Source of the DNA: Acidobacteriaceae bacterium
Lineage (GTDB): Bacteria > Acidobacteriota > Terriglobia > Terriglobales > Acidobacteriaceae
Length of the DNA stretch: 49,613 nucleotides
Assembly: GCA_025355505.1 (NCBI GenBank)
Contig: JANXZM010000108.1
Location: forward strand, 1-49,613
Reading direction: 5' to 3'
The notes under the pieces were generated by a model. The model saw nothing but the letters and a program-made list of their open reading frames with translations. It was not told the origin of the DNA and searched no databases. Each line of letters begins with the position of its first letter. Within the stretch, counting starts at the first letter, position 1. Below are positions 8,551 to 39,485 of this stretch, one piece after another. The translations under genes and the position numbers were made by a program.

Positions 8551-9174
8551 ATGTCGGCTAAACGCTTCTTAGTTTCAGTTGTGCCAGTCTTAGTTCTCGT
8601 GACCAGTGGTTTCGCGCAAGTGAATGAGCTGTCGATCACGGCGGGGCGGGTTTTCGTCAGCACCCAGACGATCGTGAATTCGAGTTCGCCCGAGCCCCAC
8701 ATTCATTTCGGAAACGAGGAAATGGTCGAGTTTAATTACGGTCGCCTGCTCAAGAGCCACAAGATTTTCGGACTCTATGCGGAGTTGCCCGTAGCGATTT
8801 ATCCGCGGATAGACCTTCACACCTTCCAGAACACGATTCCCAAGGACATCGGAGCGCTGTTCGTGACCCCATCCGTGCGGTTGAACATTTTTTCCGGCGA
8901 CTCAGTCACCCCGTGGGTTAGCGCGGGCGGGGGCTATGGCCGCTTCCGGGAAGCCCCGGTTCTCAATTTCTTCGGACCGAACCCCGGGGCAACCGGCACC
9001 AATACCGGCGTAATCCAGTTCGGAGCTGGGTTGGATACGTGGTTTTGGCAGCGGTGGGGTGCGCGGTTCGAAGCGCGAGATTTCTACTCCGGAGTTCCCG
9101 CACTGAACGTTACCACCGGGAAAAGTCGTCAACACAACTACTACGTAGGTGTCGGCGTGGTCCACCGCTTCTAG
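8551..9174 (+). CDS. Outer-membrane beta-barrel protein (OmpA/OmpW-like size)
   Basis: A 207-aa secreted protein with an N-terminal signal peptide (KRFLVSVVPVLVLVTSGFAQ) and alternating hydrophobic strands rich in Gly and aromatics. It ends in a strand with terminal Phe (VGVGVVHRF), the usual signature for BAM-dependent barrel insertion. The ATG at 8551 follows a strong GGAGGAGAG site directly upstream, so it is preferred to the longer frame from 8512. The exact family is not recognised. Its stop overlaps the stop of the converging transglutaminase gene within a CTAG. Confidence 0.75.
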   Translation: MSAKRFLVSVVPVLVLVTSGFAQVNELSITAGRVFVSTQTIVNSSSPEPHIHFGNEEMVEFNYGRLLKSHKIFGLYAELPVAIYPRIDLHTFQNTIPKDIGALFVTPSVRLNIFSGDSVTPWVSAGGGYGRFREAPVLNFFGPNPGATGTNTGVIQFGAGLDTWFWQRWGARFEARDFYSGVPALNVTTGKSRQHNYYVGVGVVHRF

Positions 9175-11384
9175 CTGGCGGCTGCGCGGTTGGGCGTTTT
9201 TCCGGAATCCGCACTGTCGGTGGCAGTGATGTCATTGAAAAGCTCGGGCAGGCTTTGGGCGTCGTCCACTGACTTGCCGAAACGCGCGGATTCGTAAGCG
9301 CGCGTAAACCTTGCAACCTTGCTCTGCAGTGCCGCTTCCTGAATGGCCGCGACGAAATCAAACGGTGTTTGCGACGGCGACTTACGCCAGCCAAGCCGCG
9401 CCATGCGGCCCACCATCCGGCCATACCAAAGGGCAGCCGACTCGCGCGGGGCACGTTCCGGATGCGCTCGCAGGCGACGGTCACGCAGTCCCCTGACCAC
9501 GCGCCCCAGATTCAGCAGCGTAATCAGGACTGCCGCGAAGCCAATGCTGCCGGCCAACCATCGCACTGGAAAATTGGTGAAGTGCGCGTGCGCGCGCCGC
9601 GCCGACCGTAGCAGGGCCCGATGCCGCCGCCCAATCCACCGGCGAGCCTCATCAAAGAAACGCCGGCTGCTGGTAGCCGCATCCTTCCCTAAAGTGCGTT
9701 GGTGGCTGACATCGTAGTTGACAATCCATTCCCGCCAAAAAGATGCGGCCGCATCCACATAGAGCTGCATCCGCGACCAACCGGTTCGCGTCGGCACGCT
9801 TCCCGCTGGAGTTGGATCGAACGCGACCCAACCAGAACCGGGAAAGTAAGCTTCAACCCACGAATGGGCGTCGCTGGCTCGCACAACATACTGGCCGGTG
9901 AGGTCATTGAATTCACCCCCGTGGAACCCCATCACAATTCGCGAGGGGATGTGCAACAAGCGCAGCATCGCTGCCATCGAACTGGCGAAATACTCGCAGT
10001 GACCTCTCTTCCTCTCGAACAGGAAATTGGCCAGTGGATCCAGGGGCAAGATGCGGGGCAGCTCCAGCGTGTACCCGAAGTGTGTTGATAGGTACCGTTC
10101 CAGCGCGAGTGCCTTGTCATAGTTGCTGGGAGCCGACGCGGTAATTTCCTCCGCCAACTTCAAAATGCGAATATCGAGCGGCGGGAGTTTTAGGTATTTG
10201 TCCATACCTCCCGGCGCGGTGTTGGCCGCCAGACGAAGCTCGTCGCTGTCGGTCTCGGCCAATTGCGACTCGGCTTCGTACCGATTGATCGGGTGGTCGG
10301 TATCGAGGTTGTAGACCGATCCCCCGTCGTCGGTACCCACCTGCCGGAAATCTCCCATGAGACTCTGCGGTTTATCCGCCAGAAAAAAGACGCTGGTTCC
10401 CAGGGGCTCCATCAGGACTCGATAACGGATGGATCGGCCCGCGACCGTCGCTAAGCCACGCGGGTCCGCCAAAGGTGCCAGCCGATAGCTTCCATCTCCC
10501 GCGGGTCGCAGACGGGTCTGCTCAAACGAATTCGACCAGACCTTGCCATCAAAAGCGCTCAGCGCTACCCCACGCCACTTCAAATCGTAAACGCCTTGCA
10601 GATCGTTCTGGATCTCTATGTGCATGACGACAGCGCTGGACTGCTGAATCTCACCGATGCGGCCCAGTTGCACACGATCTGTAAAGCCGGTCGAGACATC
10701 ACTGGTGGGAGTGTAGGCGCTCAGGTAGTGCGACGAAATGCGCGGAAGAAGAAAGAAGACGAGGAAACCGCCGGCCAGGATCATCAGCATGAGCACGGGA
10801 GCGATGGCCAAAAGTCCGTAGGCCATGCGCCGGGGGGGAGATGCAACCCGTGGATCCAGTGCGTGGGTTTGCTCGGTGGCGACCGAGTGCCGCATCTCCA
10901 TCAGCACAAAAGTGATGACTGCAACCAGCAGGAAGCCCGCAAAGGAAAACAGGAACACACTGCCGGCAGTCAGCACAGCGGCCGCCAGCACCATGAGAAA
11001 CGAAAGTATCGCGAGCATGTAATGATCGCGCGTCCGCTGCAACGAGAATAGCCGGACGACCATGGCGAAGAGCACAAGATGAACGCTTGCGGCCAGAAAA
11101 CCGCGCGAAAGAAAGAAATAATCGGCAAAGTAGATGAAGACGTAAATCAGCGTCAGGAAAGTCGTCCAGCGTTCCGGGATCACAAACTCGCGCCGCGTCA
11201 GAAGTTGATATCCGCGAAGCGCCAGCGCAAGCCCCACCGCAACCACCGCCGGCAGGTCCAGCCCGCCGGTCGATGCCAGAGCGCCGAAGCCGGTGAGCAC
11301 GAGCACATAAAGCGCCACATTAAAGTAGCGCTCGATGGCCTTGGCCATGGTGATCCCACTCGAGTTGATGGAGGCTTCGGCCAC
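9171..11384 (-). CDS. Membrane-anchored transglutaminase-like protein (DUF3488-TGc-DUF4129)
   Basis: A 737-aa inner-membrane protein. The N-terminal 200 residues contain about six transmembrane helices (DUF3488 type). They are followed by a periplasmic transglutaminase-like domain with the triad visible as Cys in KRGHCEYFASS, His in DAHSWVEAY and Asp in AFDPTPAG, then a further helix and a DUF4129-like tail. In many bacteria this protein sits with MoxR ATPase and DUF58 genes, none of which is adjacent here. Its substrate is unknown. An internal ATG at 11348 (MAKAIERYF) is a plausible alternative start. Confidence 0.9.
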   Translation of the reverse strand: MAEASINSSGITMAKAIERYFNVALYVLVLTGFGALASTGGLDLPAVVAVGLALALRGYQLLTRREFVIPERWTTFLTLIYVFIYFADYFFLSRGFLAASVHLVLFAMVVRLFSLQRTRDHYMLAILSFLMVLAAAVLTAGSVFLFSFAGFLLVAVITFVLMEMRHSVATEQTHALDPRVASPPRRMAYGLLAIAPVLMLMILAGGFLVFFLLPRISSHYLSAYTPTSDVSTGFTDRVQLGRIGEIQQSSAVVMHIEIQNDLQGVYDLKWRGVALSAFDGKVWSNSFEQTRLRPAGDGSYRLAPLADPRGLATVAGRSIRYRVLMEPLGTSVFFLADKPQSLMGDFRQVGTDDGGSVYNLDTDHPINRYEAESQLAETDSDELRLAANTAPGGMDKYLKLPPLDIRILKLAEEITASAPSNYDKALALERYLSTHFGYTLELPRILPLDPLANFLFERKRGHCEYFASSMAAMLRLLHIPSRIVMGFHGGEFNDLTGQYVVRASDAHSWVEAYFPGSGWVAFDPTPAGSVPTRTGWSRMQLYVDAAASFWREWIVNYDVSHQRTLGKDAATSSRRFFDEARRWIGRRHRALLRSARRAHAHFTNFPVRWLAGSIGFAAVLITLLNLGRVVRGLRDRRLRAHPERAPRESAALWYGRMVGRMARLGWRKSPSQTPFDFVAAIQEAALQSKVARFTRAYESARFGKSVDDAQSLPELFNDITATDSADSGKTPNRAAAS

Positions 11385-18600: not shown

Positions 18601-19833
18601 TCAACGTTGATGGAACAATGCGGCAGCGATTTGCCTGGGTTCGGCGTGGCGTCCGCAACAGGGCCCCGGGGGAATGGGTGCGCCGTGGGGGCAGGTGAGC
18701 GGGTGGTTGAGGAAGGTGCAGATCTTGTCGGTGGCTTCGGGGGAAAGTATGTGCTCAAACTTGCAGGCCTGTTGCTCGATTTCGGTCTCGCTATCCATGG
18801 CGAGCGAGTCGGTGAAGAGGCGCTCCGCCAGGCGGTGGCGGCGGATGATGTCGGCAGCGCGCTGGCGTCCACGCGGGGTGAGTTCGACGATCAATTGACC
18901 GTCGCCGGTTGAGAAGCCAGCCGGCTTCAGCGCGTCATGGCAGGGATTGACGAAGGGCTTGTGATCGTGCGATTCGGGCGGGTGTGGGCGGGTTGTTACC
19001 AGTCCCATGGCGGCCATTTTTTCGACGGCGATGGATACGGGCAGAGCGCCGTGGACTTCCATCCGGCCAATCTCAGCGATTTCGCCGTTTTCTTCCAGGG
19101 CAAATAATTCTTCCAGGACTTCGTCGAACTGCTCGTCGTCGGCCATCGCAAAAACTTCCTGGGCGGCGATTTGACCGTGATGCAATTCAAGGCGGCGGTC
19201 GGCCAGACGGGCGACTACGGGATCGTGCGTCACCATGACGATGGTGCGTCCTTGCTGATGAAGTTCGCGAAGCAGGCGCAGGACGATTTCTTCGTTGATG
19301 GCGTCCAGGTTGCCGGTGGGTTCGTCGGCCAGCACGATTTTCGGATCGTTGATGAGGGCGCGGGCGATGCAGACCCGCTGCTGCTCGCCTCCGGAAAGCT
19401 GTGAGGGCAAATGGCCGGCGCGGTCTTTCAGACCAACGCGATCGAGTGCGTCGAGCGCTTCCCGTTCGTCGGTCATGCTATGGAAGTACTGGGCGAGCAT
19501 AACGTTCTCGACGGCGGTGAGATACGGGATCATGTGGAACTGCTGAAAGACGAAGCCGATGGTTTCGGCGCGAACGTGGTTCAGTTCAGAGGCGCTGAGG
19601 TTGGCGACGTTTTGTCCGTCAAGCCAGATTTCGCCGCTAGTGGGGCGGTCGAGGCATCCGATGAGATTGACCATGGTGCTCTTGCCGGAGCCGGAGGGGC
19701 CCATCATCGCGACCCACTCGCCGGGCGCGATGGAGAGAGAGATGTCGTCGAGCGCATTGATGAGGTTGAGCCCGCCATTGTTTTCTTCCGCTCTAGCGGG
19801 ATAACTTTTGGTGACGTTCTTAAGTTGAATCAT
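18601..19833 (-). CDS. ABC ATPase fused to a DtxR/MntR-like metal-sensor repressor
   Basis: A 410-aa fusion. Residues 1-228 are a LolD/MacB-type ATPase with Walker [10 protein letters not shown] (45-53), signature LSGGEQQR (146-153), Walker B (166-171) and switch His 202. Residues from about 232 match DtxR/MntR: a winged-helix-like segment (232-320), then the dimer/metal domain with H333, E337, C357, E360 and H361 placed as DtxR H79, E83, C102, E105 and H106. The DtxR H98 position is Glu here. The family-typical [10 protein letters not shown] follows (381-390). An unusual His/Cys loop ([12 protein letters not shown]) lies inside the winged region, and the SH3-like third domain is missing. It is the last gene of the Ftr1 operon, so the sensor may gate transport or act on DNA. 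Confidence 0.93.
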
Positions 19834-19865
19834 CTTTCCAGCTTCTCCAATCTTGCTGGTGGAGC

Positions 19866-19903
19866 GCCGGGCGTCGCCGCCCGGCAGGAAGGGCGAGACG
19901 CCC
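19866..19903. repeat. REP-like double hairpin inside the iron operon
   Basis: GCCGGGCG (19866-19873) and CGCCCGGC (19878-19885) form a perfect 8-bp stem with a TCGC loop. GGGCG AGA CGCCC (19891-19903) forms a second small stem. It sits in the 107-base gap between the second permease gene and the ATPase-DtxR gene, whereas the other junctions in the operon overlap. The core resembles repeats at 26101-26122 and 35098-35140. Confidence 0.6.
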
Positions 19904-19940
19904 GTCGCTCGACCGCATAACTCGTCACGCGCTCACGATA

Positions 19941-21113
19941 CTACTCTCCCCTCAGAATAACAGCGGGTTGAACACGGCGCAGCAGTTCAATAGGGAGGAT
20001 GGCGGAGATGAGGGCCACGGCAACACTGCCCGCAAGCACGTACGGGAAGACGCTGAAGCGTGGGACGACGGGCGCGTGGAAGTTGACTCGTCCGATCCAG
20101 ATGGCGACACCGATGCCGATGAAAAAGCCGAGAATGGCGCCGACTGCGCCCAGGGCCGCAGCTTCGGCCGCGAAGAATCCGTTGATTAAACGTTCGGAAG
20201 CGCCGAGAGCTTTCATGATGGCGAAGTCGCGGCGGCGGTCGAAGACCCATCCAATGAGCGTCGCGAGCACGCAGAGAGCGGAAGTAAAAACGACCAGAGT
20301 GGCGGAGGCGTAGAGAGTGGCGCGGGTTTTATTCAGCACGTTGGCTTCGCCTTCCATGATCTGGCGGACGGGTCGGACGTGGACCGAGGGCAGAAGCTGC
20401 GCGAGTTGGCGAATCGATGTTTCAACTTCCGCAGCGGTTCCGTTGACGGCAACTTCGATGGTGGAGGGTGCGATGCCCGTCCAATTCTGGAATTCAGATT
20501 GATCGAGATAAATACGGCTGTCTTCGCCCGCGCCCGTCTGCAGCATGCCCGCGGGCGCGAGTTGGATTGCCTTGCCCTGAAACGTAAGTTCGAAGGGCTG
20601 GCGATTCGGGGCAGCTTTGGGATTAACTACGGCGGCGGCGCGCATGCCGATGAGAGCTTCGTTTGGCGCGTCGGGCCAATGACTCACTTTCCACCAGTGG
20701 TTTAGCAGGCGGGCGCGTGTGAAGTCGGTGCCGACGACGACTACCGATTGTCCGTCATGGGTGCGGGCGACAGCGTAGGAAAAAGGAACAGCCATCGTTT
20801 TTTCGCCGAGAACGGATTCGACTTTGGCCAATGCGCCGGCGGGCAGGGACTGTCCGTCTTTTGCGACGATCACTAGGTTGGCGCCATAATTTCGGAACTC
20901 GGTGCGGAGCTTGGCTTGCACGTCGACGTAGAGGTTCGTCATGGCGGTGGCGACGGCGGCGGCAACAATCATGGCGAGCAGGGCGGAGGCGGCGCGTCTG
21001 CGGCGGAGGACAGCGGCGCGGAAAAGCATGCGCGCGAACATGGAAATGTGCGGCGCCTGAGCGCGGCGAGCGGCCACTTGCTTCGGAGTAAGGAGCGTGC
21101 CGGGAGTGCTCAT
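19941..21113 (-). CDS. FtsX/MacB-type ABC permease (second)
   Basis: A 390-aa inner-membrane protein with one N-terminal helix (about residues 37-60), a large periplasmic domain and three C-terminal helices, the MacB/FtsX layout. The cytoplasmic coupling motif FAIMKALGASERLI and the closing RRVQPAVILRGE are typical. It starts four bases inside the first permease gene (ATGA overlap), so the two are coupled and likely form a heterodimer powered by the ATPase that follows. Paired permeases of this kind accompany Ftr1/P19 iron systems, for example in Campylobacter. Confidence 0.9.
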   Translation of the reverse strand: MSTPGTLLTPKQVAARRAQAPHISMFARMLFRAAVLRRRRAASALLAMIVAAAVATAMTNLYVDVQAKLRTEFRNYGANLVIVAKDGQSLPAGALAKVESVLGEKTMAVPFSYAVARTHDGQSVVVVGTDFTRARLLNHWWKVSHWPDAPNEALIGMRAAAVVNPKAAPNRQPFELTFQGKAIQLAPAGMLQTGAGEDSRIYLDQSEFQNWTGIAPSTIEVAVNGTAAEVETSIRQLAQLLPSVHVRPVRQIMEGEANVLNKTRATLYASATLVVFTSALCVLATLIGWVFDRRRDFAIMKALGASERLINGFFAAEAAALGAVGAILGFFIGIGVAIWIGRVNFHAPVVPRFSVFPYVLAGSVAVALISAILPIELLRRVQPAVILRGE

Positions 21114-22435
21114 CCTTCACCTCGCAGTGCGAACACAGGATCGAACTTCACGGCGCGGCGGATAGCAGCAGCGCTTCCGGCAAAGGTCACGAAGACGGCG
21201 ATGGCCAGGATGATCGGGAAAAGCACGGGCTCGATGGAAATCTGCGAGTTAAAAATGGAGCGGCCGATCTGGTGCGCCAGCAGCGCTCCGGCGGAGAATC
21301 CAGCAACGCCGCCGACGAGCGCGAGCAGCAGTGCCTCCGCAAAAAAAATGGCAGAGACCGCGAGACTGCTCGCGCCGAGGGCTTTCATCAAACCGACTTC
21401 GACGCGGCGCTCATAGATGGCGGTGGCCATGGCGGCGGAAACGGCGAGAGCGGATGCGAACAGGGCGGCGAACGTGATCAGCAGCATCAGTCCCTTGATG
21501 CGCGAGAGGACGGTGCCTTCGTTTTGCGCGACCTGCCGAATCTGCTCCGCGTGCGAATGCGGGATCGCTTCCTCTAACTGGAAGGCGATTGACTGCACGT
21601 AGGGGGAACAGTACCAGCGGTCGTAAACCTCGGGAGTCATCGTCTTGGGATCGCGAATGGCGAGCGCGTCCTGAGGCTTGGTCAGGGCACTGACGTAAAC
21701 GCGGCGTACGGCACCGAGTTTACCGAGAATTTGCTGCGCGAGGGCTAGGGGTGCGACGATCTGGTCGTCTTCCTGGGCACCGGTGGAGAGAATGCCGGAA
21801 ATTGTGAGTTCGCGGCCGGAGACCTGGATTGTGTCGCCGGGTCGCTTGGCTAGCTTGGCGGCCAAGCGCTCGCCTAGCAGAATATTTTGCGAGTTGTCAT
21901 CTGGCCAAGCGCAGGAGGCCGGCAAGTCTTGGACTCGCCCTGGACGGGGCGCAGCCCCGTCCCCACACTTGCCTTCCACTTTCCACCAGGGGTGTGTAAT
22001 CTTCACGCCGGTGGTGAAGTCTTCATTTCCGAAGCGTAGTGGCTTATTGAAGTAGGTGCCGACCAGCGTGACATCTTTCGCGCCGCTGCCGCTCCCTAAT
22101 TTTACGGTGACGGGCAGCATGGGCGAGAAGCCGACGATGTTGTGGTGCCAGAAGGTGCCGCGAATTTTCGGAAGGTCGGCTTCGTTTAGGAACGCGCCGT
22201 CGCTGGGCGGCTTAAGGTTAACGCCACCTACTTCCACGTCGAGTGTGTCTTCCTGCGGCGTGACGACCAAATTAGCGCCGTAGCTGCGCAGTTCGCGGTT
22301 GATTTTATCGCCGATGTCGGTGGCCACGGCGATCATGGCAGTCGCGACCGCTACTCCCAGGGTGATCGCGATGCCCGCCAGAAGCTTGCGGCGCGCCTGG
22401 TGGCGAAACGATTCGTAGACCATGCGAGGAAACAT
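21110..22435 (-). CDS. FtsX/MacB-type ABC permease (first), with in-frame palindrome
   Basis: A 441-aa permease of the same layout as its partner: N-terminal helix (about 18-38), periplasmic domain, three C-terminal helices, the coupling motif VGLMKALGASSLA and the closing VKFDPVFALRGEG. It begins one base inside the Ftr1 stop codon (TAATG). Within the periplasmic domain, after WWKVEG, a stretch of about 20 residues (CGDGAAPRPGRVQ and onward to SCAWP) is encoded by a perfect GC-rich palindrome at 21942-21962 and looks like an in-frame repeat insertion. The frame remains open, so the gene is probably functional. Confidence 0.9.
   Translation of the reverse strand: MFPRMVYESFRHQARRKLLAGIAITLGVAVATAMIAVATDIGDKINRELRSYGANLVVTPQEDTLDVEVGGVNLKPPSDGAFLNEADLPKIRGTFWHHNIVGFSPMLPVTVKLGSGSGAKDVTLVGTYFNKPLRFGNEDFTTGVKITHPWWKVEGKCGDGAAPRPGRVQDLPASCAWPDDNSQNILLGERLAAKLAKRPGDTIQVSGRELTISGILSTGAQEDDQIVAPLALAQQILGKLGAVRRVYVSALTKPQDALAIRDPKTMTPEVYDRWYCSPYVQSIAFQLEEAIPHSHAEQIRQVAQNEGTVLSRIKGLMLLITFAALFASALAVSAAMATAIYERRVEVGLMKALGASSLAVSAIFFAEALLLALVGGVAGFSAGALLAHQIGRSIFNSQISIEPVLFPIILAIAVFVTFAGSAAAIRRAVKFDPVFALRGEG
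21942..21962. repeat. REP-like palindrome inside a coding gene
   Basis: GGACGGGGC, loop GCA, GCCCCGTCC: a perfect 9-bp stem. The flank CCCAC after the right arm matches the flank of the intergenic hairpin at 26101-26122. It is translated in frame as part of the first permease of the iron operon. Confidence 0.75.
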
Positions 22436-23685
22436 TATTTCTGCTCGAAGTAGCGTCGGCCCGCTGCGACGTCGGCTTCGGAAACGATGACCGCGTCGTT
22501 CGTGACCTGCGCTTTCAGCGGGATCGGATTGCAGCCGCCGGGCATGCCGACCGACTGCGGGTTGATGGGCGCGGCGCAGTTTTTGCAGATCACTCCCTGC
22601 GCTCCTTTATAGAAGCCGACCGGGCCGCAGATTTCGCAGGCGTCGAAGAGCGTGGCGATTTTTCCGTCGGGCTTCTGGTAAAGCCAGAAACGGACTTCGA
22701 CGCCGCCTTCTTTGGCTTCAAAGCGGTGAAGTTCGCCATCGTAAATCTGCTGCAGTGGAATGGAGATTTTGCCGTCGACAAAGCTGACTTCCGCAGCCGG
22801 CGAAAGCGCGCTCGCGCCCTTCTCGTAGATGAAGCTGGCGGTGACCATGACGATGAAGACGAACGAGCAGATGTAAACCGATGCCATCCAGAGACGCTCG
22901 CGACGGGCCGTCCAGAGCGCTTTGCGGCGGCTGGCACCGCTGGCCGGCAGTTCGACAGGCTGGCGGCTCTTCATTTCAAACAGCACCATCAGTGCGGCCA
23001 GCACGAAAATCGTGATGAAGAAAAAAAGATCATTGCGGACGATCGGCCCGATGATGGCCATCTCCTGGCGAGAAGAGGGAAGCACGCCGTTCTCGGAGAG
23101 TTCGTGAAGGCCGGCGACCACAAGTTGCGCGGCTACCAGGAAAAGAATCGCGGTGGTGACCTTGAAGAATTTCTGCAGATTGATTTTGACGCTGCCCTTG
23201 ACGAACATCACGCCGAACAGCACGGCGACGGCCACGCCCAGGAGCGTGCCGATAAAGCTCATCAGCTCGTTGGAGTTCAGGGTTACGGCGGAGAGGATCA
23301 GAACCGTTTCGACGCCCTCCCGCAGCACCATGAGGAACACGAAAAGGAAGAGGCCGATCCAGGCGTCACCGCGGGCGAACAAGCCAATCTTTGTTTCGAT
23401 CTCACCTTTGAGCTTGCGGCCAGTCTTCATCATGAAGACGATCATGGTGACGACGAACACGGCAGCGACCAGCATGACCCAGCCTTCGAAGATGTCCTGG
23501 TTCCACTTGAGGCGGGAGAGCACAACGGCCACGGCGATCGATCCGGCAAACGCTGTGGCCAGAGCGGTATAGACGGATTTGCGTAGATCATTGCGGCCGA
23601 TCTTGGCAAGATAGGCCAGCGTGATGCCGACGATGAGAGCCGCTTCGACGCCTTCGCGGAGCGTAATGATGAATGCTTGGAGCAT
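22435..23685 (-). CDS. Ftr1-family iron permease fused to DUF2318
   Basis: A 416-aa membrane protein. The N-terminal part (about 1-270) is an Ftr1/EfeU permease of about seven helices with two REGxE iron motifs (REGVEAALIVG at 10-20 and REGVETVLIL near 121). The C-terminal 130 residues are a DUF2318 domain with FDACEICG, VICKNCAAPIN and GGCNPIP, a cysteine-rich domain found beside Ftr1 systems and thought to bind metal, Fe-S or heme. In Campylobacter the related functions are on separate genes with a P19 protein, which is absent here. It is the first gene of the operon; a Fur-box-like dyad lies 22 bases upstream. Confidence 0.92.
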   Translation of the reverse strand: MLQAFIITLREGVEAALIVGITLAYLAKIGRNDLRKSVYTALATAFAGSIAVAVVLSRLKWNQDIFEGWVMLVAAVFVVTMIVFMMKTGRKLKGEIETKIGLFARGDAWIGLFLFVFLMVLREGVETVLILSAVTLNSNELMSFIGTLLGVAVAVLFGVMFVKGSVKINLQKFFKVTTAILFLVAAQLVVAGLHELSENGVLPSSRQEMAIIGPIVRNDLFFFITIFVLAALMVLFEMKSRQPVELPASGASRRKALWTARRERLWMASVYICSFVFIVMVTASFIYEKGASALSPAAEVSFVDGKISIPLQQIYDGELHRFEAKEGGVEVRFWLYQKPDGKIATLFDACEICGPVGFYKGAQGVICKNCAAPINPQSVGMPGGCNPIPLKAQVTNDAVIVSEADVAAGRRYFEQK

Positions 23686-23707
23686 TGAAAAAAGTATCGC
23701 TTTCTAA

Positions 23708-23736
23708 TTGAAAATGAAATTCAATTTCAATATCAA
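23708..23736 (-). promoter_or_regulatory. Fur-box-like 29-bp dyad upstream of Ftr1 gene
   Basis: A 29-bp inverted repeat centred on C23722 has 12 of 14 arm positions paired. Its inner 15 bases (23715-23729, TGAAATTCAATTTCA) form a perfect 7-1-7 palindrome, the layout of a Fur-family box. It is far more AT-rich than its surroundings and ends 22 bases before the Ftr1 start codon, where a repressor would block transcription. Fur, or the DtxR-like domain encoded at the end of the same operon, are both candidate binders. Confidence 0.7.
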
Positions 23737-24601: not shown

Positions 24602-25921
24602 CTACTTCAGTGTGCTTGCCAGGAGAACGCCATTTGCCCAATAAAAGCCAGACTCTCCCGCAGGAAGCAGGTCGAATGTTCTTGTGTCTCCATACGGGAC
24701 AGCATCTGCGGACTTGATTACCGCTCGGTCATACAGGTCGTTCTCCCGCAGATCCCCCAGCGTTCGTCCGTCCACCGTCGGGTGTCCCGGGGATGCCCAC
24801 AGCTCTCTTCCGTCGCTGAAAATCAAGTGGATCATCAGGTGCTCCACAGGAACGGAAGCCGCAGCAATTCTAAGTATGGGCATGGCCACTCGCTGGTTGT
24901 TGGCGTCGACTGTCCAAACCAACATACCCAGGCGAAGATCTCTTACCGCCACAGGTCCGAGCGGGGTGTCAATGCGCGCCGTCGCAGCCAGACAGATGGG
25001 ACAGCTGAGAATGACAGAGTCCTTCTTTAGAACAGAGACCTCGCCTTGTAGACTAATGATCCCCTCAATCTTCAGTCCGCTCCTGCCCGAGACCGAGCCT
25101 GGCGGGCCTGGCGCTGGAGCACTCAGCGTAAACCGGTATTTTTCCGCCAAGGGCGCAAGATCGATTGCCCGCAGTCTGGCGTATTCACGGTGCAGCAGCC
25201 TTTTCTGGTCGCGAGAAAAATCTGTGACTCCCACAAGACCCAGGTGGGTCACCATCGCACGCACGGTTTCTGTATCTTGCTGGATGTTTGGGAACGCCCT
25301 TTCTGCTTCGTCAGCGCGGGCGACGGGAGGGCCACAAACCCATACGTCGCCGAATTCCCGCAGTAGACGGTAGCGCAATTCGGGAACAAGAAGTTTGCCC
25401 GGGGAGGATAGAGATTTAGCTGAGTCCGCTCTCCGCCCGCGTTCGTTAACTGCCTTGCTGGTGGTCATCATCTGGCCTTGGCGGTCGATAAAGAAAGCGG
25501 TCGAAGGCTTGCCGAGCTGCTTACATGTGGAGTGGTTGCCTGGTCCGAAGGACACTTTGTATCTGTTTTCCCACGGCTCGAGCCGTATCATGCGTAGTTT
25601 TTCATATTCCCGATCGACCAGGACTTTCTCGTCATCTGAAAACTTTGCACGATCTTGAAGACCGAGATGTCGCGCGATTCCCCGGAAGGTGTCGCCATCC
25701 TTTTTAATAGCCGGGAATCTTTTGAGTGCTTTCCTGGTTTCGTCAGCCGGGGCACTTGCAGGCTCGACTTGGCAAGGCAGTTTTCCGCCCCATGCCTCTA
25801 GCAAACGGTAACGCAATCGAAGCGCAGTTGCTTGGTCGAGAGCAGCCGGTTCGGCGCAAAGAAGAGGTATGGGCAGCACCAACACCAAAATCGTCAGCAT
25901 AAACACGGACTTCATGCTCAT
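24602..25921 (-). CDS. Secreted protein with duplicated domain and C-terminal Hint domain
   Basis: A 439-residue secreted protein (a GTG at 25933 would add four residues). After a signal peptide (MLTILVLVLPIPLLCA) come two related modules of about 95 residues: RYRLLEAWGG...HLGLQD...REYEKLRMIRL and RYRLLREFGD...HLGLVG...REYARLRAIDL. The final 130 residues form a Hint fold, starting with a Cys (CLAATARIDTPLG, about residue 310), followed by VRDLRLGMLVWT, the SPGHP block and the terminal FDLLPAGESGFYWANGVLLAST. The usual C-terminal Asn and following extein are absent, so splicing is not expected; Cys-dependent self-cleavage or attachment is possible. The role of the repeated module is unknown. 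Confidence 0.85.
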   Translation of the reverse strand: MSMKSVFMLTILVLVLPIPLLCAEPAALDQATALRLRYRLLEAWGGKLPCQVEPASAPADETRKALKRFPAIKKDGDTFRGIARHLGLQDRAKFSDDEKVLVDREYEKLRMIRLEPWENRYKVSFGPGNHSTCKQLGKPSTAFFIDRQGQMMTTSKAVNERGRRADSAKSLSSPGKLLVPELRYRLLREFGDVWVCGPPVARADEAERAFPNIQQDTETVRAMVTHLGLVGVTDFSRDQKRLLHREYARLRAIDLAPLAEKYRFTLSAPAPGPPGSVSGRSGLKIEGIISLQGEVSVLKKDSVILSCPICLAATARIDTPLGPVAVRDLRLGMLVWTVDANNQRVAMPILRIAAASVPVEHLMIHLIFSDGRELWASPGHPTVDGRTLGDLRENDLYDRAVIKSADAVPYGDTRTFDLLPAGESGFYWANGVLLASTLK

Positions 25922-26100
25922 TTGCTTCGCCACTAAATACTACCGTAGTTGACTACTTCGGCGCCGACGCAGGTAGTCCGTGGAAAATCATAGGTTGGGT
26001 CAGGCTTCAATGGAAATGGTTCTCGCAGCGAGTTGCATTCGGCGATGACGTGCAGCCGAGACGAATATCCGCTGGCGCCGACAAATAGCGTTGCTTGGCT

Positions 26101-35923: not shown

Positions 35924-37402
35924 ATGAAGAACAGACGTGATTTCCTGAGAAATACTTTTGGTCTGGGCGCCGGTTTGGCGGCCGCACCTCGCCTCTTTGC
36001 ATTTCCCACGGAGGCGCGCGGAGAAAACATGGACATGGACCACATGAGCTACGGAACGCAGCGCAGCAGTCGGATCGTTTCGGTGGAAACGCCGGACGTT
36101 CCGCAGCTTCCCTGGCGCATGGCCGGCGGGGCGAAGGAGTTTCACTTGATCGCCGAGCCGGTGAAGCAGGAATTGATCCCCGGCAAGATCGTGAACCTAT
36201 GGGGTTATAACGGCAGCGCTCCGGGACCAACGATTCAAGTGAACCAGGGTGATCGGGTGAGGATCGTCGTGGATAACCATCTTCCCGAAGCCACCTCGAT
36301 GCACTGGCACGGATTTGAGATCCCCATCGACATGGATGGGGCGCCGGGGAGTAGCCAAGATCCGATTCCGCCCGGCGGTCGTTTCGTTTATGAGTTTACG
36401 CTGCATCAGGCAGGGACCTTCTTCTACCACTCGCACATGGCGATGCAAGAGATGATGGGGATGATCGGGGCCTTCATCATGCACCCCAAGAAAGCCTATG
36501 ATCCGCCGGTCGACAAAGACTTCGCGCTCATCTTGCAAGAGTTCGCGATCCTTCCCAACAATCCCATTCCGAACTCCATGAACATGGAGTTCAACTGGCT
36601 GACGTTCAACGGCAAGGCTGGTCCTGCCACCACTCCTCTGATTGTCAGGCTGAACGATCGCGTCCGGCTGCGCTTAATCAACCTCGGAATGGACCACCAT
36701 CCCGTTCACCTGCACGGGCACACGTTTGTCGTGACGGGGACGGAGGGGGGGCGGCAGCCGAAGACCACTTGGGGGCCCAAGAACACGGTTCTGGTGGGAG
36801 TGGCCGAGGCCGCCGATGTCGAGTTCGTCGCCAACAATCCCGGAGACTGGATGCTGCACTGCCATCTGCCACACCACATGATGAACCAGATGTCGTCGGT
36901 GGCAGGCCCGATGACCCGAGGCAGCAATCGTATGCCCGCGGGCTTGGGTATGGGAGAAGGGATGGGCATCTTGCGGGAAGGCCACGCCACCTCCCAGGAC
37001 AAAGGTCCGAGTTTGGGTCGTGGAATGGGTGTGGGTTCCACACGCGACCAGACCGTTGGGAACGGACCTCTCTCAACAGCGCAGGCGAAGCACTCCATGG
37101 GCAACATGCCTGGCATGGAGCACGAAGGAATGCAGATGACAGCGCCGGAAGTGGCGAAAGACGCCAACTCGGTTCCCGGATTTCCGCAGGACGCCTTCAT
37201 GGAAGGGCCGGCGATGGCGATGGACAAGATGGTGGAGAAACCGGAGAACTTCGGGCTTCGTCCGGGCTGGAGTGGATTCATGCAAGGCATGATGACCTTT
37301 CTCCGGGTGCTGCCGCCCGAAATGTACGACAAGGTGATGGCTTTGCGCGACCAGCAGAAGGGTAAGCCCGAGCCCATGCCGGGAATGGAGCACCAGCAGT
37401 AG
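35924..37402 (+). CDS. Two-domain multicopper oxidase with Met-rich tail
   Basis: A 492-aa Tat-exported enzyme (RRDFLR signal). Copper ligands are complete: HWH 127-129, HSH 169-171, HPVHLH 259-264 and HCHLPHHMMNQM 312-323, which supplies the T1 His318 and Met323. Only about 185 residues separate the first and last motifs, so the core has two cupredoxin domains, as in small laccases, rather than three. The remaining 160 residues are rich in Met, His and Gly (MGEGMG, MPGMEHEGMQM) and probably bind Cu(I). Likely role: oxidation of toxic Cu(I) in the periplasm. AGGGGAAGAG precedes the ATG. Confidence 0.9.
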   Translation: MKNRRDFLRNTFGLGAGLAAAPRLFAFPTEARGENMDMDHMSYGTQRSSRIVSVETPDVPQLPWRMAGGAKEFHLIAEPVKQELIPGKIVNLWGYNGSAPGPTIQVNQGDRVRIVVDNHLPEATSMHWHGFEIPIDMDGAPGSSQDPIPPGGRFVYEFTLHQAGTFFYHSHMAMQEMMGMIGAFIMHPKKAYDPPVDKDFALILQEFAILPNNPIPNSMNMEFNWLTFNGKAGPATTPLIVRLNDRVRLRLINLGMDHHPVHLHGHTFVVTGTEGGRQPKTTWGPKNTVLVGVAEAADVEFVANNPGDWMLHCHLPHHMMNQMSSVAGPMTRGSNRMPAGLGMGEGMGILREGHATSQDKGPSLGRGMGVGSTRDQTVGNGPLSTAQAKHSMGNMPGMEHEGMQMTAPEVAKDANSVPGFPQDAFMEGPAMAMDKMVEKPENFGLRPGWSGFMQGMMTFLRVLPPEMYDKVMALRDQQKGKPEPMPGMEHQQ

Positions 37403-37434
37403 GGCTGAGCGGATTGATTGAATAGGAGAACGCA

Positions 37435-38856
37435 ATGAAGACACAAATTTATCCGGCAGTATGCACCGGGTTTTCGAGCGTATTGCTGGCTGTTCTGACG
37501 ATGTTGCCGTTGGGATTCGGTCAGGAACAGCCGATACCAGTCATGCCGTCACCGGCAACAACGACTTCGTCGCAGGAACAAGCAACCACTCAAAGCGGCC
37601 TCACGCTGGTTGAGTTGGAACAGATGGCCCTCAGTAACAATCCCACGCTGGCCCAGGCTGCTGCTGAGATTCGTGCTGCTACGGGTCGGAAACTCCAGAG
37701 TGGACTCTATCCGAATCCCACAGTCGGGTATCAGGGTGAGCAAATACGGGGTGGGATCCAAGGCGGAGGCGAACAAGGTTTCTTCGTCAGCCAGGACATC
37801 GTCCTCGGCGGCAAGCTCGGACTCAACCGCCGAGTTCTGGAGCAGGAGAAGAAGCAAGCGGAAGCAGAGGCCGAGGAGCAACGTCTCCGCGTCATCAACG
37901 GCGTGCGAATGTTCTATTACCAATCACTGGCTGCGCAAGAGATGGTTGATCTGCGTCACAAGCTTAGCAAGTTAGCCGAAGATGCCGTGCAAACCTCGCA
38001 CCAGCTTGGCAATGTTGGACAGGCGGACCAACCGGACGTGCTTCAAGCGGAAGTTGAAGGGGAGCAGGCGGAACTGGCGGTGGTGGCTGCGGAGCAGAAC
38101 CAACTCCGTGCCTGGCGGGCCTTGGCGGCTACGGTAGGAAAGCCGGAAACGCCGTTGACGCACCTCGCGGGCAATCTCGAAGACCTGCCCGAGGACAATC
38201 CCGATCAATGGTTGCAGGCGATCGTGCAGGAAAGTCCAGCCGTCAAGATTGCAGAGTTGGGAGTGCTCAAAACGGAGGCATCGCTGGCCCGGGCGAAGCG
38301 TGAGCCTATACCCGACCTGCAACTTCGCGGAGGTCTTCAGCAAAATCGGGGACTGGATCCGACCACAAACCGCCCTATCGGCTTGCAGGGGTTCGCCGAA
38401 GTTGGTGTGCAAATTCCCATCTTCAATCGTAATCAGGGAAACGTGCAGGCTTCCAGAGCGGACGTTGAGCGCGCACAGCGGGAAGTGCAACGGGTCCAAC
38501 TGGTCTTGCGTGAGCGTGCGGCGGCCTTGCTGCAGAGCTATATGACATCGCGTTCGACGGTGGAGAAGTACCGGAGCCGCATGATCCCGCGGGCGCGGAA
38601 GGCGTACGAGCTCTACTTGAAAAGTTACGGCGGGATGGCGGCTGCGTACCCGCAGGTGCTGATCTCGCAGAGAACTTTGTTCCAGCTCCAGACCGACTAC
38701 ATCGCCGCCCTGGAGAATCTCTGGGGCAATTCGATTGCCTTGAAAGGCTTTCTTCTGACCGATGGTCTGGAGGCGCCCAGTCGCGCTGGGGAAATGGACC
38801 AGCCGGTTCGCGAGCTCAACGTGCCATCGCCCACGATTTCCATGCAGCCGCAGTGA
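37435..38856 (+). CDS. TolC-family outer-membrane protein (CusC/CzcC-like)
   Basis: A 473-aa outer-membrane factor with a signal peptide (VLLAVLTMLPLGFGQ). Two TolC repeats of long helices are visible, each opening with a segment like LEQMALSNNPTLAQAAAEIRAATG, with a PIFNRNQGNVQASRADVERA hairpin in the second half. Such proteins form the exit duct of RND heavy-metal pumps. No RND pump or adaptor (CusAB) gene follows, so any partner is elsewhere. A GGAG site is nine bases before the ATG; it lies 32 bases after the oxidase gene. Confidence 0.92.
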   Translation: MKTQIYPAVCTGFSSVLLAVLTMLPLGFGQEQPIPVMPSPATTTSSQEQATTQSGLTLVELEQMALSNNPTLAQAAAEIRAATGRKLQSGLYPNPTVGYQGEQIRGGIQGGGEQGFFVSQDIVLGGKLGLNRRVLEQEKKQAEAEAEEQRLRVINGVRMFYYQSLAAQEMVDLRHKLSKLAEDAVQTSHQLGNVGQADQPDVLQAEVEGEQAELAVVAAEQNQLRAWRALAATVGKPETPLTHLAGNLEDLPEDNPDQWLQAIVQESPAVKIAELGVLKTEASLARAKREPIPDLQLRGGLQQNRGLDPTTNRPIGLQGFAEVGVQIPIFNRNQGNVQASRADVERAQREVQRVQLVLRERAAALLQSYMTSRSTVEKYRSRMIPRARKAYELYLKSYGGMAAAYPQVLISQRTLFQLQTDYIAALENLWGNSIALKGFLLTDGLEAPSRAGEMDQPVRELNVPSPTISMQPQ

Positions 38857-38870
38857 GAAGAGGAAGAGAC

Positions 38871-39485
38871 ATGCGAAAAACTAGAGTTCTATTGCTACTG
38901 GCGCTTGTCGTCGTGATCGTAGTGATTGCCGGATCCGTGGTTGCAGTGCACCACGGTTTCAGGGCCCGTGACCAGCCTTCAGCGCTGGAGACTTACGTGG
39001 CACGGATCGTCCGGGGGTTAGCCGTTCCTTCCAGGGCGAAGAACGAGAAAAACCAGTTCACGGCGTCACCCGAGCTGATGGCCGAGGCGAGAGCACACTT
39101 TGCCGACCACTGTGCCCTCTGCCACGCCAATAATGGAAGCGGAAATACCCAGATCGGACAGAACCTCTATCCGAAAGCTCCGGACATGCGCTTGCCGCCG
39201 ACCCAGAACCTGACCGATGGGGAGCTTTACTACACCATTCACAACGGCATCCGGCTTACCGGAATGCCTGCGTGGGGCCCGGAGAAGGAAGACGAGGATA
39301 GCTGGAAGCTGGTGCTTTTCATACGGCACCTGCCTCAGCTTACTGCGGCGGAGGAACGTGAAATGGAAGCTCTCAATCCGAAGGGGCCTGGAGAGAAACA
39401 GGAGGAACTAGAAGAAGAGCAATTCTTGAACGAAGGCCAACCCGGCAATCTGGTACCCAAACCGCCAACGCGCCACGATCATTGA
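38871..39485 (+). CDS. Membrane-anchored class I cytochrome c
   Basis: A 204-aa protein with an N-terminal membrane anchor (VLLLLALVVVIVVIAGSVV) and a periplasmic cytochrome c domain. The heme motif is C81ALCH85 and the axial Met is in LTGMPAWG. The Glu-rich tail is probably disordered. It could pass electrons from the multicopper oxidase reaction or to a terminal oxidase. ATG 38871 follows GAGGAAGAGAC, better than the frame start at 38853 that overlaps the TolC gene. Confidence 0.9.
   Translation: MRKTRVLLLLALVVVIVVIAGSVVAVHHGFRARDQPSALETYVARIVRGLAVPSRAKNEKNQFTASPELMAEARAHFADHCALCHANNGSGNTQIGQNLYPKAPDMRLPPTQNLTDGELYYTIHNGIRLTGMPAWGPEKEDEDSWKLVLFIRHLPQLTAAEEREMEALNPKGPGEKQEELEEEQFLNEGQPGNLVPKPPTRHDH

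Follow-up and report, generated by a model that had tools for sequence, protein, structure and literature searches.

In Campylobacter jejuni, a single operon, Cj1658-Cj1663 (81-176 1649-1656), encodes Ftr1, DUF2318, a pair of permeases and an ATPase, and a function in iron uptake has been shown for this system (PMC6083913). A stretch of 49,613 nucleotides from an Acidobacteriaceae bacterium (contig JANXZM010000108.1 of assembly GCA_025355505.1), referred to as the window throughout, holds on its minus strand a four-gene operon of the same content, in which the ATP-binding cassette (ABC) ATPase is fused to a metal sensor of the DtxR/MntR type. The Cys motif of the Campylobacter DUF2318 protein fits the spacing seen in the window, CxxC-x13-CxxC-x14-C (PMC6083913). 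Unlike the Campylobacter system, the window carries Ftr1 and DUF2318 (FtrD-like) in one protein and a sensor on the ATPase; P19 (PF10634) had no match in the source genome, a 4.16 Mb assembly that is 96% complete, and no thioredoxin was found among the flanking genes scanned, which encode an amidohydrolase and a SprT-like protein.

Several described proteins share part of this design. The C-terminal domains of MetN (C2) and ModC are reported to bind substrate at the dimer interface and thereby to shut off the transporters they belong to (PMC10710835). The window protein likewise has a putative C-terminal regulatory domain on an ABC ATPase, but its fold is different, it would sense metal instead of methionine or molybdate, and its ATPase is of the MacB/LolD type and not of the importer type. 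That the domain belongs to a ligand-binding family is judged from architecture and ligand residues. In an iron system of Chlamydia, YtgCR likewise couples an ABC transporter subunit with a DtxR-like domain; there, however, it is the permease that is fused, the protein is cleaved and the YtgR part is a working DNA-binding repressor (PMC7755916). FeoC resembles the window sensor only in the role proposed for the latter: it is a small cytoplasmic regulator of an iron importer that acts on protein and not on DNA, shielding FeoB from FtsH and carrying an iron-sulphur (Fe-S) cluster (PMC10710835). FeoA acts on the FeoB GTPase and is reported to stabilise GTP-bound FeoB (PMC8980893). An earlier, sequence-only reading of the window had held that sensor and motor are normally separate proteins, which needs qualifying in view of the MetN/ModC regulatory domains (PMC10710835) and the YtgCR fusion (PMC7755916). 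These two are the closest precedents, and what sets the window fusion apart from both is a DtxR-derived metal sensor that appears to be without a DNA-reading surface. We lean, if modestly, towards the view that this DtxR-derived module retains the metal switch, no longer reads DNA and directly adjusts the nucleoside triphosphatase (NTPase) of an iron transporter.

An ABC ATPase-sensor fusion beside Ftr1-FtrD

All four genes described by the sequence-only reading (Ftr1-DUF2318, two FtsX/MacB permeases and the fused ATPase) were recovered as open reading frames (ORFs) at their positions, and Pfam agrees with them. The ORF list and Pfam place the ATPase-sensor gene last, after those for Ftr1-FtrD, permease 1 and permease 2, and within its single ORF ABC_tran covers residues 28-173 (E 2.7e-36) while Fe_dep_repr_C covers residues 319-388 (E 1.2e-25).

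GTDB genomes yielded 103 relatives when scanned, of which 80 were kept, all of them read as Acidobacteriota. The fusion is present in each of the 80; it is a complete ORF in 77 and is cut by the contig end in three (L011, L034 and L061; L and G numbers are our handles for loci and genomes). The possibility that a frameshift or stop between the two halves had been missed is excluded by these 77 complete fused ORFs, and an assembly artefact was likewise rejected, as the 80 relatives and the fusions from other families share a single frame. An Ftr1-FtrD match, in some cases partial, lies upstream in 67/80 loci; in the remaining 13, the contig stops inside the permease genes or short of them.

When the sensor profile was searched against 396 sampled Acidobacteriota genomes, seven genomes had the Terriglobales-type fusion seen in the window, and 14 further genomes, from other families, had the same fusion without an insertion that replaces the wing, again in one frame and with Ftr1-FtrD and permeases upstream. 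Including locus L259, at least 22/396 genomes across eight families are fused, a lower bound because not every PF02742 match was examined. Each of these fusions adjoins Ftr1-FtrD. Another 36 PF02742 regions, mostly long open frames, were taken; L319, L334 and L349 (the last an unsuitable region) had no sensor ORF, none of the 33 remaining PF02742 ORFs carried ATPase motifs, and no ATPase fusion outside an Ftr1-type operon was seen among them. The fusion is real and is spread over several Acidobacteriota families. No ABC-ATPase-DtxR fusion was named in the titles and abstract starts of the papers listed by literature searches. A plasmid search returned 61 records; the 25 listed are annotated as regulators, and the best one lies beside feoB.

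Related operons also occur without the sensor. Among 40 further FtrD regions, 16 had no recognisable ATPase, and 22 of the 24 ATPases found end at 221-258 residues, the other two being fused (L259, L260); 13 of 74 FtrD-bearing genomes were left out of this survey. An Ftr1 match accompanies 13 of the 22 sensor-less ATPase loci (weak in L258), and the other 9 are FtrD-permease-ATPase sets that lack one. Because such related operons exist, the sensor looks like an accessory regulator. Sets of this kind at L250-L256, L261 and L281 showed no Ftr1 match in the stretch examined; their ATPases form a separate clade, and they are possibly another kind of FtrD system.

The sensor module and its stand-alone kin

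The sequence-only reading had described an intact ATPase followed by DtxR metal ligands, with the third domain lost, and each of these points held. Walker A, the signature, Walker B and the H-loop vary little or not at all across 42 aligned rows, and the ATPase half found its best matches in MJ0796, MacB, LolD and FtsE, every NCBIfam match lying under its equivalog cut-off. The sensor half is nearest by sequence to IdeR and DtxR. The suspicion that residues 232-410 might not resemble DtxR/MntR was contradicted by two comparisons. With the domain model as query, the first 40 Foldseek matches were IdeR/DtxR (E 5.5e-8 to 1e-5, target template-modelling (TM) score up to 0.80, about 157-169 columns), and a local profile-profile alignment (hhalign) against 25 canonical proteins ran from residue 238 to 390 at a probability of 99.2; a longer alignment was made in global mode, which forces its reach. 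The Pfam model of the DtxR DNA-binding domain, PF01325, nonetheless gave no match to the N-terminal part of the window sensor, and in the other-family fusions the local alignment begins only near the end of domain 1. Modelled alone by AlphaFold, the sensor domain (pLDDT 82.9, pTM 0.81) folds like domains 1 and 2 of IdeR. The window protein shares domains 1 and 2 with DtxR/IdeR/MntR by fold, together with the metal ligands; unlike these proteins it has no domain 3 (the SH3/FeoA domain is missing), its recognition helix is altered, it is acidic, a 30-residue insertion stands in for the wing, and it is fused to an ATPase.

When the window protein was aligned with its 80 relatives, E238, E241, H333, E337, E353, C357, E360 and H361 showed no variation in 81/81 sequences. 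The ligands claimed earlier (H333, E337, C357, E360 and H361) are among these, and the CPHGAPIP motif was confirmed. In an alignment with canonical members, E238, E241, H333, C357, E360 and H361 correspond to Asp8, Glu11, His77, Glu99, Glu102 and His103 of MntR (numbering as in PMC4805248), with Cys replacing Glu99, while the E353 position is His in all 26 canonical proteins. The sensors have kept the domain 2 ligands and two helix 1 glutamates, that is, the metal coupling of domain 1 to domain 2. This coupling, as in metalloregulators, speaks against a reading in which the domain and its cysteines collect Fe(II) where Ftr1 opens to the cytoplasm and hand it over, as an acceptor or chaperone with no control of the ATPase. 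Such a carrier would suit the many conserved Cys and His residues, those of the insertion included, and the finding that every fusion whose contig extends far enough belongs to an iron operon; but in related operons 22 ATPases lack the sensor, and a fusion to the ATPase, not to the permease, would fit control better. We consider the carrier role unlikely.

Four further cysteines, C372, C381, C392 and C393, are found in 69-70/70 Terriglobales-type fusions, 15/15 other fusions and 46-47/48 stand-alone sensors, compared with 0/26 canonical proteins. For the charge, ligand and cysteine counts, 11 of 81 Terriglobales-type rows were left out (n=70); the canonical set had lost 4 of 30 loci, and 5 more were dropped in the charge count. 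The conservation of these four residues in transporter-linked sensors, set against their absence from canonical ones, would agree with a redox switch in which they hold an Fe-S cluster (or Zn) and oxygen controls stability or activity, as with FeoC, a small Fe-S regulator of FeoB stability (PMC10710835). The cysteines could instead bind structural Zn, and we regard an Fe-S switch of this kind as improbable.

Domain 1 has changed in other respects. Its anchor-to-anchor length is 33 residues in 68/70 Terriglobales-type fusions and 31-33 in 15/15 other fusions, compared with 36-40 in the 26 canonical proteins. The gap falls at the start of the recognition helix, whose residues differ from those of canonical members. 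Spacing in the stand-alone kin varies (26-37, one of 13), and L179 is without the gap. The first ~56 residues of domain 1 carry a mean net charge of -11.0 in the Terriglobales type (n=70, -14 to -7; -11.1 for domain 1 in all 81 sequences), -4.7 in 14 other fusions (-9 to -1), -5.9 in 20 stand-alone proteins (-10 to 0) and -1.0 in 21 canonical proteins (-3 to 1). The insertion in place of the wing was confined to Terriglobales-type fusions in the sets compared and was modelled at low confidence. From these sequence features, the DNA-reading surface appears to have been lost from the sensor module.

The next-scoring proteins after the fusions were 48 stand-alone sensors, mostly of 210-250 residues. 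An ORF with the FeoB P-loop adjoins 39/48 of them, 4 of the 9 misses being at contig ends; it lies upstream on the same strand in all 15 cases measured, and the neighbour of L157 was confirmed as FeoB by Pfam. A sensor beside feoB is also annotated in Pelobacter propionicus. Genomes G132 and G377 each have one fused and one stand-alone copy. In a tree of 103 sensors (88 columns, canonical rows taken as outgroup, 13 of 81 Terriglobales-type sequences included), the 28 fused sensors form one clade (95/81) nested in a clade with 18 stand-alone ones (98/97), and the fused and stand-alone group is split from the 26 canonical DtxR-family proteins (99/98). One stand-alone row, L313, groups with the canonical proteins. 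The feoB-linked sensor-FeoA proteins, annotated as 'metal-dependent transcriptional regulator' (for example WP_011733790.1), thus belong to the same clade, with the same ligands, the four cysteines in nearly all and a domain 1 that is acidic on average; unlike the window protein they stand alone, are mostly encoded with feoB and keep a FeoA domain, PF02742 plus FeoA being found in the four that were scanned with Pfam (L145, L150, L157 and L176). As judged by the tree, the fused sensors share their origin with the feoB-linked stand-alone proteins, minus the FeoA domain.

Two of these feoB loci show further regulatory genes by eye. At both, the ORF just ahead of feoB and its sensor-FeoA partner is Fur-like (L157, 4594-5070; L179, 4983-5615), which would place transcriptional and the proposed protein-level control in one cluster. 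At L179, a second DtxR-like ORF (8595-9137) follows immediately after the feoB-linked sensor.

The upstream dyad and the setting of the operon

Upstream of the operon lie overlapping Fur-like 7-1-7 dyads (Table 1); the dyad, noticed in the sequence-only reading, is present and conserved among relatives. Because the pattern searched was derived from the site itself, its shuffle control is post hoc. In 58/78 upstream regions, namely 55/64 of the Terriglobales type and 3/14 others, a 15-mer agrees with the Fur consensus at 10 or more of 14 positions; these are raw counts, and the match counted at L021 is a different sequence. The remaining 11/14 other-family fused operons had no such 15-mer at the threshold used. 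An exact search for a 17-mer motif in 60 family genomes gave matches in 23, and a reversed control pattern gave none. Of 29 sites, 23 were inspected, with 12 at Ftr1 and 11 elsewhere. By eye, 5/11 of the latter precede feoAB-like genes (L224, L228, L238, L241 and L243) and others a PepSY-like operon (L229) or porin-like ORFs (L235 and L245); at L225, L226 and L232, the downstream genes could not be placed. A 14/17 variant lies beside the unfused operon of G321, a genome with 0 PF02742 matches. At 10 unfused operons of genus g4 the dyad is absent or weak, the best being a 10-of-14 match at L283.

These sites bear on whether the fused ATPase, or a fragment cleaved from it as YtgR is from Chlamydia YtgCR (PMC7755916), acts as a metal-dependent repressor of its own operon by binding the dyad. 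The IdeR-like fold of both domains in the Foldseek comparison and the YtgCR precedent would allow for it, as would the 15-mer before most Terriglobales-type operons, the lack of the dyad at most unfused ones and its rarity in the window genome, where the motif (at most 1 mismatch) occurs at only three places, the other two not obviously at iron genes. These places are fewer than a large Fur regulon would suggest, which weighs against dismissing a private operator. On the other side, an acidic domain 1 carries an altered recognition helix, the 17-mer precedes feoAB-like ORFs and, as a variant, an unfused operon in a genome lacking PF02742, most other-family fused operons are without the 15-mer, and an internal start that might release the sensor does no better than synonymous codon draws (ribosome-site signal in 61/81 observed, 59.0 expected). 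Self-repression through the dyad is in our judgement improbable. Because the same 17-mer precedes feoAB-like genes, and its 14/17 variant accompanies the unfused operon of a genome that has no PF02742 match, the dyad is not a private operator of the fused protein; that candidate was rejected, the 17-mer also standing before PepSY-like and porin-like ORFs in relatives. The pattern of sites is that expected of a Fur-family operator and not of one that the fused protein reads, though it does not prove Fur, as the motif is rare within this genome.

A free sensor translated from an internal start at M230 was also dropped: Met is present in 70/81 sequences and is not kept in the other-family fusions, and the frequency of a ribosome site equals the synonymous expectation. 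In a separate observation, the stretch about 26-44 bases ahead of Ftr1 in L040, L057, L064, L067 and L070 holds another palindrome, of the TTGCAACTNAGTTGCAA type, where the TTGAAATTCATTTTCAA box would otherwise stand. In these five fused operons, to go by the sequences, the operator changed and the sensor stayed.

Its gene content marks this operon as one for an Ftr1-DUF2318-ABC iron uptake system. The Ftr1-FtrD protein has two REGVE motifs besides its cysteine motif, and the permease 1 gene overlaps its two neighbours by 1 base and 4 bases. The fusion is the sole PF02742 match in the source genome (G000), which has two Fur-family matches, at C30:37500-37865 and C13:50239-50598. Like P19, FeoB_C had no match in this assembly; only these two were checked, and the operon may perhaps encode this genome's main ferrous iron importer. 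Elsewhere in the window, the protein of an ORF at 24602-25933 (-) begins, by eye, with two repeats that resemble each other and matches Hint_2 (intein/hedgehog-like) weakly, under the cut-off (E 1e-5), and a multicopper oxidase, an outer-membrane efflux protein and a cytochrome c, copper-handling in look, follow one another at 35924-39485 (+).

Table 1. Positions of the operon genes, of the parts of the ATPase-sensor protein and of the upstream dyads in the window
Feature	Position	Strand	Basis or marks
Ftr1 iron permease fused to FtrD-like (DUF2318) domain, 416 aa	22435..23685	-	ORF; Pfam FTR1 and FtrD-like
FtsX/MacB-type permease 1, 441 aa	21110..22435	-	ORF; Pfam FtsX and MacB_PCD
FtsX-type permease 2, 390 aa	19941..21113	-	ORF; Pfam; MacB_PCD match under cut-off
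ABC ATPase - DtxR-type sensor fusion, 410 aa	18601..19833	-	single ORF; Pfam
ABC ATPase domain, residues 1-225	19159..19833	-	Walker A, LSGGE signature, Walker B, H-loop
Degenerate winged-helix domain 1, residues 228-282	18988..19152	-	E238, E241 invariant; net charge about -11
30-residue insertion replacing wing, residues 283-312	18898..18987	-	conserved H284, H289, H291, C298, H299
DtxR metal-binding/dimerisation domain 2 (PF02742), residues 319-388	18670..18879	-	ligands H333, E337, E353, C357, E360, H361
C372...C381-P-H383...C392-C393	18655..18720	-	alignment of sensors with kin and canonical proteins
Overlapping Fur-like 7-1-7 dyads TTGAAAATGAAATTCAA and TGAAATTCAATTTCA	23708..23736	.	upstream of operon

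Proposed control of the iron-importer ATPase

FeoB and the Ftr1-ABC system are unrelated iron importers that have a cytoplasmic NTPase in common. Because the sensor module accompanies the NTPases of both, we infer that it would control the ATPase directly. Two roles had been proposed in the sequence-only reading. The first, a metal that switches the transporter directly, is favoured by the invariant ligands of both domains, by kin that lie mostly beside feoB and by the existence of sensor-less operons; the second, an ATPase acting as its own repressor, is not supported, given the acidic domain 1, the altered helix and the occurrence of the dyad elsewhere. In the proposed mechanism, the sensor would respond to cytoplasmic Fe(II), or to Mn(II), or to an Fe-S cluster on the extra cysteines. 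Since domain 2 of DtxR is its dimerisation domain, the sensors would pair across two ATPase subunits, and metal occupancy would change the closure of the two ATP-binding domains. The simplest outcome would be an ATPase that is slowed when iron is plentiful, a feedback transinhibition like that of MetN/ModC, with the direction of the effect presumed. Transcription would be controlled separately, presumably by a Fur-type repressor at the upstream dyad.

Several observations weigh against direct control by a sensor that no longer reads DNA. The charge ranges of the other fusions and of the stand-alone kin overlap the canonical range, the recognition-helix equivalent is highly conserved in the Terriglobales type and so has some role, and one stand-alone relative, L150, has a sub-cut-off match to PF01325 (E 0.0027). 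PgMntR, a DtxR-family protein with FeoA domains that is encoded with an FB2 transporter, is reported to bind DNA (PMC4805248). Among the fusions themselves, the H333 equivalent is Gln in 5/15 from other families (L147, L152, L153, L154 and L164), and in L260 (G200, 9281-10210) the fused ATPase-sensor retains CPHG but has decayed metal ligands. The model of the whole protein is of poor quality (mean pLDDT 67, pTM 0.44), so the contact between sensor and ATPase cannot be read from it; its ATPase part compares with known ATPases at TM 0.25/0.41 and a root mean square deviation of about 12. Moreover, MacB/FtsX-type transporters are not MetN-type importers, and the geometry of transinhibition may not carry over.

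The ATPase tree adds a further point against this view. In it, the fused ATPases of the Terriglobales type pair with unfused ATPases from the same family as their sister group (100/94); the remaining fused ATPases stand elsewhere and are joined by the unfused ATPase of L257 on a long branch (89/86). A single fusion could thus not be taken as settled: the sensors form one clade, but the ATPase tree needs either one fusion followed by loss of the sensor or two fusions, and the sequences are consistent with either history.

We also entertain, without quite favouring it, a wider proposal in which proteins of a DtxR-derived lineage gave up transcriptional control and came to govern iron-importer NTPases directly, operated by metal or Fe-S: FeoB as its FeoA-tethered partners and, once fused, the ABC ATPase in cis. 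If this were true, many 'metal-dependent transcriptional regulator' genes beside feoB would not encode transcription factors; their products would be predicted to act on protein. If direct control of the Ftr1-ABC ATPase is right, these bacteria would have a second, immediate layer of iron control, in which the transporter motor reads cytoplasmic metal on top of the control of transcription, and the role and gating of the ABC part in Ftr1-DUF2318 systems would become testable with a single soluble protein. A classic repressor fold would then have moved from DNA to a membrane machine.

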